Under the pieces are notes generated by a model. That model had not been told where the DNA came from, did not search any database, and saw only the letters and a list, made by a program, of their open reading frames with translations. DNA of 64,000 bases from Haloarcula rara (GTDB lineage Archaea; Halobacteriota; Halobacteria; Halobacteriales; Haloarculaceae), in NCBI RefSeq assembly GCF_029338235.1, contig NZ_CP119785.1:1488001-1552000 (forward strand), written 5' to 3'. The translations under genes and the position numbers were made by a program. Within the stretch, counting starts at the first letter, position 1. Every line of letters begins with the position of its first letter. Positions 34,176 through 38,135 of the stretch are shown here, piece after piece.

Positions 34176-34994
34176 ATGCAGACACTGGTGACAGGTGCGA
34201 CGGGGACGCTCGGAACGGCACTCGTCTCACGGCTGCAGGCCGCAGGACACGAGGTCAGGGCGGCCAGCCGGTCGCCGCCCGCGGACGGGACCGCCGACTG
34301 GGTCGAACTGGACCTCGCGAGCGGCGACGGCCTCCCGGCCGCCCTGGAGGGTGTCGACGCTGTCGTCCACGCCGCGACGGCGCCGACGGGCGACACCAAG
34401 GCGGTCGATGTCGAGGGAACGAGACGGCTGCTCGAGGCGGCGGCCGACGCCGCCGTCGAGAACGTGGTCTACCCCTCCATCGTCGGCATCGAGTCGATTC
34501 CGTACTCCTACTACGAGCACAAACTCGCGGCCGAACGCGTCATCGAGGATAGCGACGTGCCACACACGATCTTGCGGGCGACGCAGTTCCACGAGTTCGT
34601 CGCCGACAGCTTCGACACGCTGTCGAAGCTGCCGGTGTGGCCACTGCCGACCGAGATGCGGATACAGCCGGTCGCCGTCGGTGAGGTCGCCGACGTGCTC
34701 GTCGAGGCGGCAGTTCCCGACCCGCGCGGGCGGATGGCGCCGATGGGCGGCCCCGAGGTCCACTCCGTCGGCGCCCTGGCTCGGGGCTACCGGACGGCAA
34801 AGGGACTGCGCCGTCCCGTCGTTCGGCTTCCGATACCCACCGCGACGTTCCGGGCCTTCCGGGACGGCGAGGCCACCTGTCCGGACCGGGCGGTCGGCAC
34901 TGTCACCTGGCAGGAGTGGCTGCAGGCGGATGGTTTCTCATCGGGGACGCCGACTTCGGCGTCCGGGTCCGGCTCGCCCGCTGACACTACCTGA
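34176..34994 (+). CDS. NmrA/SDR-like NAD(P)-binding protein
   Basis: 272 aa. Rossmann motif MQTLVTGATGTLGTALVSRL at the N-terminus and DAVVHAATAPTGDTKAVDVEGTRRLL mark an atypical SDR (SDR_a5/NmrA-like). The catalytic Tyr may be in SYYEHKLAAERVI (YxxxK-type, EHK). It probably reduces or epimerises a small molecule or acts as a redox sensor. The start is 86 bp from the divergent HTH-10 start. Its stop overlaps the next gene's stop by 8 bp (convergent). Confidence 0.8.
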   Translation: MQTLVTGATGTLGTALVSRLQAAGHEVRAASRSPPADGTADWVELDLASGDGLPAALEGVDAVVHAATAPTGDTKAVDVEGTRRLLEAAADAAVENVVYPSIVGIESIPYSYYEHKLAAERVIEDSDVPHTILRATQFHEFVADSFDTLSKLPVWPLPTEMRIQPVAVGEVADVLVEAAVPDPRGRMAPMGGPEVHSVGALARGYRTAKGLRRPVVRLPIPTATFRAFRDGEATCPDRAVGTVTWQEWLQADGFSSGTPTSASGSGSPADTT

Positions 34995-35442
34995 CGAGGT
35001 GATTCCGTCGCTCGCCGGCCAGGCGCTCTATCTCGCGGTTGCCGTCGACGCCCGCGAGCGTCTCGATGGCTTCGAGCGTGCGGACGCTGTCGTCCAGAAA
35101 GGAGAGGATGTCGCCGGGGTAGGCATACAGCATGTAGTCGTCGGTCATCACGTCGACGATGGCGTCGGGGCCAAGGCCCTGCTCGCGCAGCTCCAGCAGG
35201 TAGCTGACGAACTTCCGTTCCGGGCAGCCACAGTGGGGGGCGGCCTGGCAGTCACAGTCCATGAAGTCCTCCGCGAAATCGAGCACCCGCTCGCGGGAGG
35301 CGTCGTCGAGTTTCGCCAGCCCCTCGCCCTGGAAGAGGATATCGAGCGTCGCTCCCTTGAACGCCCCCTTGGGGAAGCTCGTCTCCAGCTGGGAGGCGAG
35401 TTGCTGGTGATTCTTGACGTATATCTTGTCTGTGATGGCCAC
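34987..35442 (-). CDS. DUF5814 family protein
   Basis: 151 aa. MAITDKIYVKNHQQLASQLETSFPKG starts the conserved block; DFMDCDCQAAPHCGCPERKF holds five Cys in a metal-binding pattern, followed by LLELREQGLGPDAIVDVMTDDYMLYAYPGDIL. Haloarchaea-specific; the same domain occurs fused to Ski2-like helicases, hinting at a nucleic-acid role. Function not established. Confidence 0.82.
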   Translation of the reverse strand: MAITDKIYVKNHQQLASQLETSFPKGAFKGATLDILFQGEGLAKLDDASRERVLDFAEDFMDCDCQAAPHCGCPERKFVSYLLELREQGLGPDAIVDVMTDDYMLYAYPGDILSFLDDSVRTLEAIETLAGVDGNREIERLAGERRNHLVR

Positions 35443-35491: not shown

Positions 35492-36154
35492 TCAGAACGC
35501 CGCCAGCACGGCCCGCATCACCTTCGATTCGGCCTTCCGGAGGTGGGTGCCGGCGGTCTGGGGCGAGCAGTCGAGTACCTCGGCCACGTCGGCCTGGGTC
35601 GCCCCGCGGGGCTGGTCGTAGTAGCCCAGTTCCAGCGCGGCTTCGACGGCCTCGCGCTGGCGCTCGGAAAGTGTGGTCGCCGGTTCCTAGAGTGTTCCGC
35701 GGAACCGCCCGATTTCCTTGACCTCGATGTCGAAGACCTCGGGCATATCTGCGAAGGCACGCTGTAATGCCTCGGGATCGCCGACGACGCGACCGTGCAT
35801 GGCTCCGTCGCGATATATCATCGGCGTCCGGAAGACGAACCCCGACAGCGGGTCCGCCCGGTGAAGCGCGTCGAACAGTGACGTTTCGAGGGGGCGCATC
35901 ACCAGCAGGGCGTAGCTCGGCCCCTCGTCGTAGTCGGCCACCTCGACCGATTCGACGCCGGGCGTCTCGGCGGCCCCCGACGCGAAGGCGTCGGTGTCGC
36001 CGTCGATGGCGAACAGGAACGTCTCGACGCCGTCGACCGTCGTGTTCACTTCCAGCACTCGTGCCTCCTCGATGGCGTCGGAATTCGCCAGGAGATTGAA
36101 GAAGGTCGGCGCCGCCTCGGGGTCGATGCGGGCCGTCGCCCGAATTGTCCGCAT
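35492..36154 (-). pseudogene. HTH-10 regulator interrupted by an in-frame amber codon
   Basis: From ATG 36154 the frame gives 155 aa (MRTIRATARIDPEAAP...IGRFRGTL), then a TAG at 35687-35689, then continues in the same frame for 64 codons to TGA 35492-35494: EPATTLSERQREAVEAALELGYYDQP...HLRKAESKVMRAVLAAF, a complete HTH-10 domain. Read through, the protein would be 220 aa, exactly the length of the intact paralog at 33427. No frameshift or missing bases. A sequencing error, recent nonsense mutation, or readthrough are the options; without readthrough the product lacks its DNA-binding domain. Confidence 0.82.
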
Positions 36155-36240
36155 GTACTGTGGCCCGCGAGCCCAGTACATAAACCCCACTTCTATACCC
36201 CACAGCAGCTACTCGGCCGTGTCCACGCTCGTATACGGTG

Positions 36241-37281
36241 ATGTCATCGAACGCAGCACGACAGGACGCGACAGCGGACAGCCAGGGGCCGCCGGCAGTC
36301 GACAGCGAGGGGCTCTCGCTGACCTACGCCGACGGTACCGAGGCCGTCCGGGACGTCTCGCTCACGATTCCGCGCGGGGAGTTCTTCGGCTTCCTCGGAC
36401 CCAACGGCGCGGGCAAGACGACGACTATCAAGCTGCTCTCGACGCTGCTCGCCCCCACCGGTGGGACGGCGCGCATCAACGGCTACGACGTGGTCGACGA
36501 GCGCTCCGCCGTCCGTGGAACCGTCGGCTACATGGCCCAGCATATCAGCGTCGACACGGAGCTCACCGCCCGCGAGAACCTCCGGTTCGCCTGTGAGGCC
36601 TACGGCGTGACCGGCGGTGACCGCATCGACGAACTGCTGGACCTCGTGGACCTCGCCGACGTGGCCGACACCCCCGCAGGCAACTTCTCCGGTGGGATGC
36701 AAAAGCGCCTCGACGCCGCGATGGCGCTCGTCCACGACCCGGCGCTCGTCTTCCTCGACGAACCCACCACCGGGCTGGACCCGAAGGCCCGCAACCGCCT
36801 GTGGGACTACTTCGAGCGCATCAACGACGCGGGCACCACGATTTTCCTCACGACGCAGTACCTGGAGGAGGCAGACGCTTTATGTGACCGGCTCGCGGTC
36901 ATCCGCGACGGCGAACTCGTCGCAGACGACTCGCCGTCGGCGCTGAAACGCCGCCTCGGTCCGTCCAGACTCACTATCGACGTCGCGGGCGGTCAAGAGG
37001 CCGCCGAGAACGCCGCACGGGCCGCCCGCCAGAGCGGCCTGGTGACCGACGAGACCGTCCTCGAGACGACCGCCGACGGGCTGGACGTCGCCACGCCTGC
37101 CCCGACCGAGGACGGCCCCGACCTCCTGGTGGCGCTCCGGGACGCCGGCGTCTCGGTCACCGGATTCGATATCGAGAAAGCCACACTCGACGACGTGTTC
37201 CTCGCTATCGCCGACGACGGGACGACGGGACTCGACGTGGAGCGCCCACAGCCGACGGCCGCCGCGGGGGAGTCGGCATGA
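36241..37281 (+). CDS. ABC-2 type exporter ATP-binding protein (DrrA-like)
   Basis: 346 aa from ATG 36241 (GTG 36238 adds one codon). Walker A GPNGAGKT, Q-loop around MAQHISVDTELTARENL, signature FSGGMQKR, Walker B LVFLDEPTTGLD, H-loop TTQYLEEAD. A C-terminal extension (235-346) contains the DUF4162-like domain of daunorubicin-type ABC proteins. It energises export together with the overlapping downstream permease. Confidence 0.9.
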   Translation: MSSNAARQDATADSQGPPAVDSEGLSLTYADGTEAVRDVSLTIPRGEFFGFLGPNGAGKTTTIKLLSTLLAPTGGTARINGYDVVDERSAVRGTVGYMAQHISVDTELTARENLRFACEAYGVTGGDRIDELLDLVDLADVADTPAGNFSGGMQKRLDAAMALVHDPALVFLDEPTTGLDPKARNRLWDYFERINDAGTTIFLTTQYLEEADALCDRLAVIRDGELVADDSPSALKRRLGPSRLTIDVAGGQEAAENAARAARQSGLVTDETVLETTADGLDVATPAPTEDGPDLLVALRDAGVSVTGFDIEKATLDDVFLAIADDGTTGLDVERPQPTAAAGESA

Positions 37282-38135
37282 GCGCCGCCACACCCGACCG
37301 TCCCACGCCGGCGGGCAACGGCCTCCCGAGAGACGTCTGGGTCAATTTCAAGCGCTGGTCCCGGAAGGCGATGCGGAACCCGACAGCCTTCTTCCTCGAA
37401 ATCGCCGTCGGCGTCCTCTCACTGCTGTTGTTCTCGGCGGTGTTCGGCGACGTAGGCGAACTCGCACTCGAAGCGGCGGGGTACGGCGGCGTGGAGTATC
37501 TGACCTACCTGGTCCCAGCGGTGTTCATGCAGGCGACGATGGGTTCTGCTTTCACGTCCGGCGTGGGGCTGGTCGGGGACCTGGAGAGCGGGATGTTCGA
37601 GAAGGTCACCGTCACGCCGATGGGGTGGACCGCCGTGTTGCTGGGGAAGGCAGCAGCTGACCTGTTGCGTATCCTCGTCCAGGTGGTGGTCGTCCTCGCG
37701 CTGGCTGTCGCGCTGGGGGCGTCCGTCGAGACCGGTGTCTCGGGCGTGGTCGGAATCGCGGCCGTCTGTCTGCTCGTCGGCCTGCTGTTCATGTCCGTCG
37801 CCAACATCCTCGGCGTGCTCGTCCGCGACGAGGAGGCCATCAACGCCGCCTCGATGCTGTTCATGTTCCCCTTGCTCTTCCTCTCACCGGCCTATATCCC
37901 GGTCGCCGACGACGTCGCGTGGCTCGCTCGACTTAACCCGATAACCTACGGCGTCGACGCGACTCGTGCGCTCGTGCTGGGTGAGGACGTCTCGACGGTA
38001 CTCTCCGTGACCCGCTTCGGCGGTATCTACGACACACTCGTCCCGTCGGTGGCGATACTCGTCGGGCTGAACGTCCTCGTCGGCGCCCTCGCCGTCTGGG
38101 TCCTTCGGCGGGCCAGTAGCGCCGACGCCGGCTGA
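37278..38135 (+). CDS. ABC-2 type permease (DrrB-like)
   Basis: 285 aa; its ATG overlaps the ATPase stop by 4 bp (ATGA), so the pair is translationally coupled. Six membrane helices; cytoplasmic N-terminus with WVNFKRWSRKAMRNPTAFF, a motif of ABC-2 permeases, and the late-helix loop SPAYIPVADDVAWLARLNPITYGVDATRAL. With its partner it forms a dimeric exporter of an amphipathic compound or lipid. Substrate unknown. Confidence 0.88.
   Translation: MSAATPDRPTPAGNGLPRDVWVNFKRWSRKAMRNPTAFFLEIAVGVLSLLLFSAVFGDVGELALEAAGYGGVEYLTYLVPAVFMQATMGSAFTSGVGLVGDLESGMFEKVTVTPMGWTAVLLGKAAADLLRILVQVVVVLALAVALGASVETGVSGVVGIAAVCLLVGLLFMSVANILGVLVRDEEAINAASMLFMFPLLFLSPAYIPVADDVAWLARLNPITYGVDATRALVLGEDVSTVLSVTRFGGIYDTLVPSVAILVGLNVLVGALAVWVLRRASSADAG

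Follow-up and report, generated by a model that had tools for sequence, protein, structure and literature searches.

A regulator gene of the HVO_0513_N/HTH_10 family in a Haloarcula-genus genome (3.28 Mb, two contigs) appears to have been interrupted by an amber mutation located in the linker that joins both domains of the encoded protein. The gene was analysed within a window of 64,000 nucleotides; the genome under study is referred to as G000 where a label is needed, and the other genomes compared are labelled G0xx. We consider it likely that the lesion is a recent, lineage-specific nonsense mutation that has left a domain without DNA binding and has freed a divergently encoded ABC-2 exporter from control. 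Translation would most likely halt after codon 155, giving a sensor-type domain without its helix-turn-helix; such a truncated product would no longer bind DNA, and the exporter would lose that control. We infer that no full-length protein is made, that the exporter is the target and that the mutation is recent.

Layout of the interrupted gene and its neighbours

The minus-strand frame from 36154 to 35492 encodes 155 residues, a TAG as codon 156, and a further 64 residues followed by TGA, giving 220 positions when the stop is counted (Table 1). Residues 1–155 matched PF24278 (HVO_0513_N) with 66.1 bits over profile positions 6–133 of 134 (Pfam cut-off 29.8), and the 64 residues behind the TAG matched all 53 positions of PF04967 (HTH_10) with 66.5 bits, both scores lying far above the Pfam cut-offs. 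The N-terminal domain is thereby complete before the stop, which separates it from HTH_10 so that the two domains do not share one uninterrupted frame. The first-pass annotation had described an amber codon followed by 64 further codons that restore a complete HTH_10 domain, and both the reading of the frame and the Pfam score bear this out; its remark that nothing else is lost also holds for the regulator gene. The HTH_10 portion contains neither a frameshift nor a second stop. The frame is not a product of chance, since the whole of it aligns end to end with the intact proteins of the two nearest relatives, G027 and G028 (85% and 81% identity, respectively). The length of 220 does equal that of the intact paralogue, as had been pointed out, but the agreement is a coincidence, the nearest orthologue having one residue fewer. 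Profile searches of the genome gave 27 matches to HTH_10 and four to HVO_0513_N.

Table 1 Features of the regulator locus, with positions counted from the first letter of the window.
Feature	Position	Strand	Basis
Intact HVO_0513_N + HTH_10 paralogue, 220 aa	33427..34089	-	Pfam
DUF5814 gene, downstream of the regulator and outside the lesion	34987..35442	-	
Cut-off 64-codon HTH_10 part (PF04967) and its TGA	35492..35686	-	Pfam
In-frame TAG, codon 156, interdomain linker	35687..35689	-	Sequence; sense codon in 29/29 other aligned homologues
Part expected to be still translated, 155-aa HVO_0513_N domain (PF24278), ATG at 36154-36152	35690..36154	-	Pfam and AlphaFold2 model
Intergenic region common to the regulator and the divergent ABC operon	36155..36237		Comparison with the G027 and G028 loci
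ABC transporter ATPase (ABC_tran, DrrA1-3_C), divergent neighbour, probable target	36238..37281	+	
ABC-2 type permease	37278..38135	+	

Upstream of the regulator start, the alignment revealed a conserved block ending in GTGGGGTTTAT, common to G027 and G028, which may represent a promoter element. The intact orthologue and the divergent ABC pair are in place in both of these genomes, and the G027 locus additionally has the DUF5814 gene and an NmrA-like gene adjacent. When flanks of up to 1.5 kb were searched, an exporter ATPase was found to adjoin the regulator divergently in 11 of the 29 other homologues, including one from another genus (G097) in which the alignment extends from the regulator through to the permease. 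The divergent ATPase was not seen within such flanks in the remaining 18; in two of these, a similar ABC pair lies close by but is oriented differently. The divergent ABC-2 exporter is thus proposed as the probable target of the regulator. The premature TAG is itself part of a CTAG, a tetranucleotide observed 32 times in the whole window against 120 expected from shuffled sequences.

The same codon in relatives and the age of the stop

A total of 146 family genomes were searched, and 128 of these, the genome under study included, contained a match to the protein. Thirty loci were fetched from the matching genomes for a codon alignment, the other 29 representing 29 other family genomes. The comparison with relatives that had been called for at this codon gave a clear outcome: all 29 carry a sense codon (GAC in 13, GAG in five, GCG in four, AAC in two, and GTG, GAA, ACG, GAT and AGG in one each), and a stop occurs solely in the genome under study. 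Judged from the alignment, the position belongs to a variable linker in which many different residues are found. TAG is two bases away from the codon of both nearest relatives, and a direct precursor was not seen among the aligned homologues. Among the matches listed, internal stops were found in two cases, namely the TAG of the regulator and a TGA in another paralogue from G028.

The cut-off part shows no visible decay. Its HTH_10 score is 66.5 bits, compared to 63.8 and 61.7 in the intact orthologues, and it differs from the G027 protein by six amino acids in 64 codons (dN 0.04, dS 0.20). Under neutral drift since the two genomes parted, approximately 13 changes would be expected along this branch alone, and the probability of observing six or fewer is 0.024 at a dS of 0.20 and 0.14 at a dS of 0.15, the test being weak at the lower value. 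The small number of changes suggests that the stop probably arose after the divergence from G027, or else that the HTH part is still in use; an undamaged HTH part is also expected if full-length protein is still made. The proposal of a fresh nonsense mutation is consistent with everything found.

Identity to G027 is mosaic across the locus. Two islands (35640-36330 and 36831-37330) show only approximately 71–89% identity per 100 bases, compared to 92–100% in much of the rest. Within 35701-36330, G027 and G028 agree against the genome under study at 86 sites, and the latter agrees with G027 at 24, while in 37331-38135 the corresponding numbers are 5 and 116. The dS between G027 and G028 drops to 0.22 in the N part of the regulator, compared to 0.59, while the distance between G000 and G028 is similar in both parts of the gene. 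As this latter distance is steady and only the G027–G028 distance is lower in the N part, G027 has probably imported a G028-like tract covering the N part of the regulator and the intergenic region. The nearest native comparison at the interrupted codon is consequently more distant than it looks. Recombination was considered as a source of the TAG, but an import into G027 leaves the stop unexplained.

Alternative explanations of the in-frame stop

The main rival to an ordinary and recent nonsense interruption, which we regard as the probable explanation, is an error in sequencing or assembly, with the gene intact in the living organism. One wrong base call would in principle be enough, the HTH part shows no damage, and the completeness of the assembly is 94.47, compared to the 99 usual in the genus. 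The genome nevertheless looks no worse than that of its relative: in a comparison of 264 kb with G027, using ORFs predicted by a simple rule of length and third-position GC by which some flags in both directions are prediction faults, the test flagged 8 of the 162 genes that could be compared, and the reverse reading with G027 as the tested genome flagged 10 of 161. The eight comprised the regulator with its TAG, one gene with both a TAA and a TGA, and six alignment splits, making the regulator the sole gene among the 162 with a single mid-gene stop, a frequency that supports neither a high rate of sequencing errors nor wholesale recoding of amber codons. A sequencing error, as raised in the first-pass annotation, is accordingly possible but less likely, and we judge it improbable.

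The other explanations depend on what the cell makes from the interrupted gene. Programmed amber readthrough would yield some full-length regulator and toggle DNA binding, and the intact HTH part without visible decay would suit it, but the stop is not conserved among the 30 aligned homologues, no relative keeping it, and TAG is a common, ordinary stop in this genome, being the terminator of 25 of the 61 ORFs predicted for the window and of 78 of the 209 predicted for the 264 kb. A search with the PylS_Nterm profile gave no match in the genome, and the two matches to PylS_Cterm (28.8 and 21.2 bits) lie far under the cut-off of 178.15, a profile that also gives sub-cut-off matches in 12 of 14 control genomes. 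No CTA anticodon was found in 44 tRNA matches, a set in which tRNA-Trp is absent too, indicating that the search can overlook tRNAs with long introns; 43 of the 44 have sense anticodons, 42 having been read directly by ARAGORN and one being a tRNA-Met with an intron, and the remaining match, 103 bases long, contains no CTA triplet. Furthermore, a review describes stop readthrough in archaea as demonstrated for Sec and Pyl alone (PMC8211752), and engineered premature stops in Haloferax volcanii are reported to have shut off downstream translation in nine of nine gene pairs (PMC6728339). The readthrough proposed earlier thus finds no backing, and we consider it very improbable. We give just as little credence to a tolerated amber codon that would produce mostly free sensor domain, titrating ligand or paralogous regulators, alongside a few DNA-binding copies made by readthrough; if true, one codon would have converted a regulator into a system with two products beside an exporter. 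Separate production of the HTH part by re-initiation behind the stop is close to negligible. Termination-reinitiation does exist in haloarchaea according to the same Haloferax report (PMC6728339), but the only in-frame ATG, GTG or TTG codons behind the stop are codons 190, 212, 213 and 216, which lie either within the HTH or beyond it, and the first candidate (GTG, codon 190) already lies within it, leaving no whole HTH possible. Finally, the 155-residue N-terminal domain could be a working product in its own right, binding ligand or paralogues and acting as a dominant partner or a buffer. The cut does leave a complete Pfam domain that is predicted to fold alone, and its N part has a dN of 0.11 and a dS of 0.83 against G028, although most of that history is presumably older than the stop. 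No other complete standalone N domain was found, however, among the 95 matches to HVO_0513_N obtained from 32 genomes of the genus: the regulator studied here, with an open frame of 173 aa, was the sole case in which an open frame shorter than 216 aa holds the complete N domain, and the other short match represents one piece of a gene that is split in G021. For the dominant partner suggested at first pass, the supporting observations are the completeness and predicted folding of the domain, and a working product of this kind seems very unlikely.

The fold prediction comes from an AlphaFold2 model of the 155-residue part, which reached a mean pLDDT of 81.1 from a shallow alignment of seven sequences and in which we read the order of the elements as that of two ferredoxin-like or ACT-like halves. 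VIA-align superimposed the model on 5m86_A (Ta1207) over 142 residues with a Z-score of 12.0 (rmsd 2.9, 11% identity), the next match having a Z-score of 7.3, while Foldseek alone returned no match for the model at an E-value of 0.001 or better. Ta1207 of Thermoplasma is thus a possible structural relative for PF24278, a likeness of fold that shows no function.

Several minor observations were made during the survey of interrupted genes. A first test in the window had suggested many such genes, flagging five places that were all TAG, but the regulator proved to be the only gene interrupted within its body: of the other four, one stop lies at the C-terminal end, two occur near the start that had been chosen, and the fourth falls in a frame that has lower third-position GC and probably does not represent a gene. 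Genome-wide amber reassignment was likewise rejected, with TAG a common terminator and one mid-gene TAG in 162 genes. The gene with both a TAA and a TGA (G000:C1:1431448-1434960, approximately 1,200 codons) has these towards its 5' end, 7% and 20% of the way along its length when compared with G027; this may be a matter of the start site. The 103-base tRNA-like match (G000:C1:92595-92697) received no ARAGORN call and carries a long insertion around the anticodon; it is possibly an intron-bearing or decayed tRNA. In G021, the coding sequence of an HVO_0513_N paralogue is divided between two frames (G021:C1:2724067-2724463), representing another broken member of the family.

Likeness to known systems

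The regulator shares its domains and their order with the haloarchaeal HVO_0513_N + HTH_10 (Bat-type HTH) regulators, part of which also have a divergent ABC-2 exporter, and differs from them in the linker stop that parts the domains in this genome alone. It resembles the nonsense pseudogenes of bacteria and archaea, which likewise combine a single in-frame stop with intact copies in relatives and little or no other decay; no difference from these is apparent, the cut simply happening to fall between two domains. The UAG recoding by Pyl in methanogens likewise involves an in-frame UAG after which the frame stays open, but here no Pyl machinery was found, the regulator is not a methylamine methyltransferase and the stop is not conserved. 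The N-domain fold resembles Ta1207 of Thermoplasma (PDB 5m86), which differs in being a 321-residue chain and to which a sequence relation is not shown.

Literature searches found no paper naming HVO_0513 or Ta1207, and searches on HTH-10, Bat HTH, haloarchaeal readthrough, amber suppressors and in-frame-stop pseudogenes gave nothing on the lesion among the papers listed; in a plasmid database, the best match spans 49% of the query. Automatic gene calls would give a 155-residue domain protein in which the HTH part is missed, which calls for caution in annotation. If the isolate truly has the stop, its comparison with an intact relative would provide a natural test of whether the divergent ABC-2 exporter is under the control of this family. 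HTH-10 is described as a Bat-type HTH in a report that also links insertions in another HTH-10 gene to hypermotility (PMC7824242), which suggests that the loss of such regulators can be tolerated, with effects.
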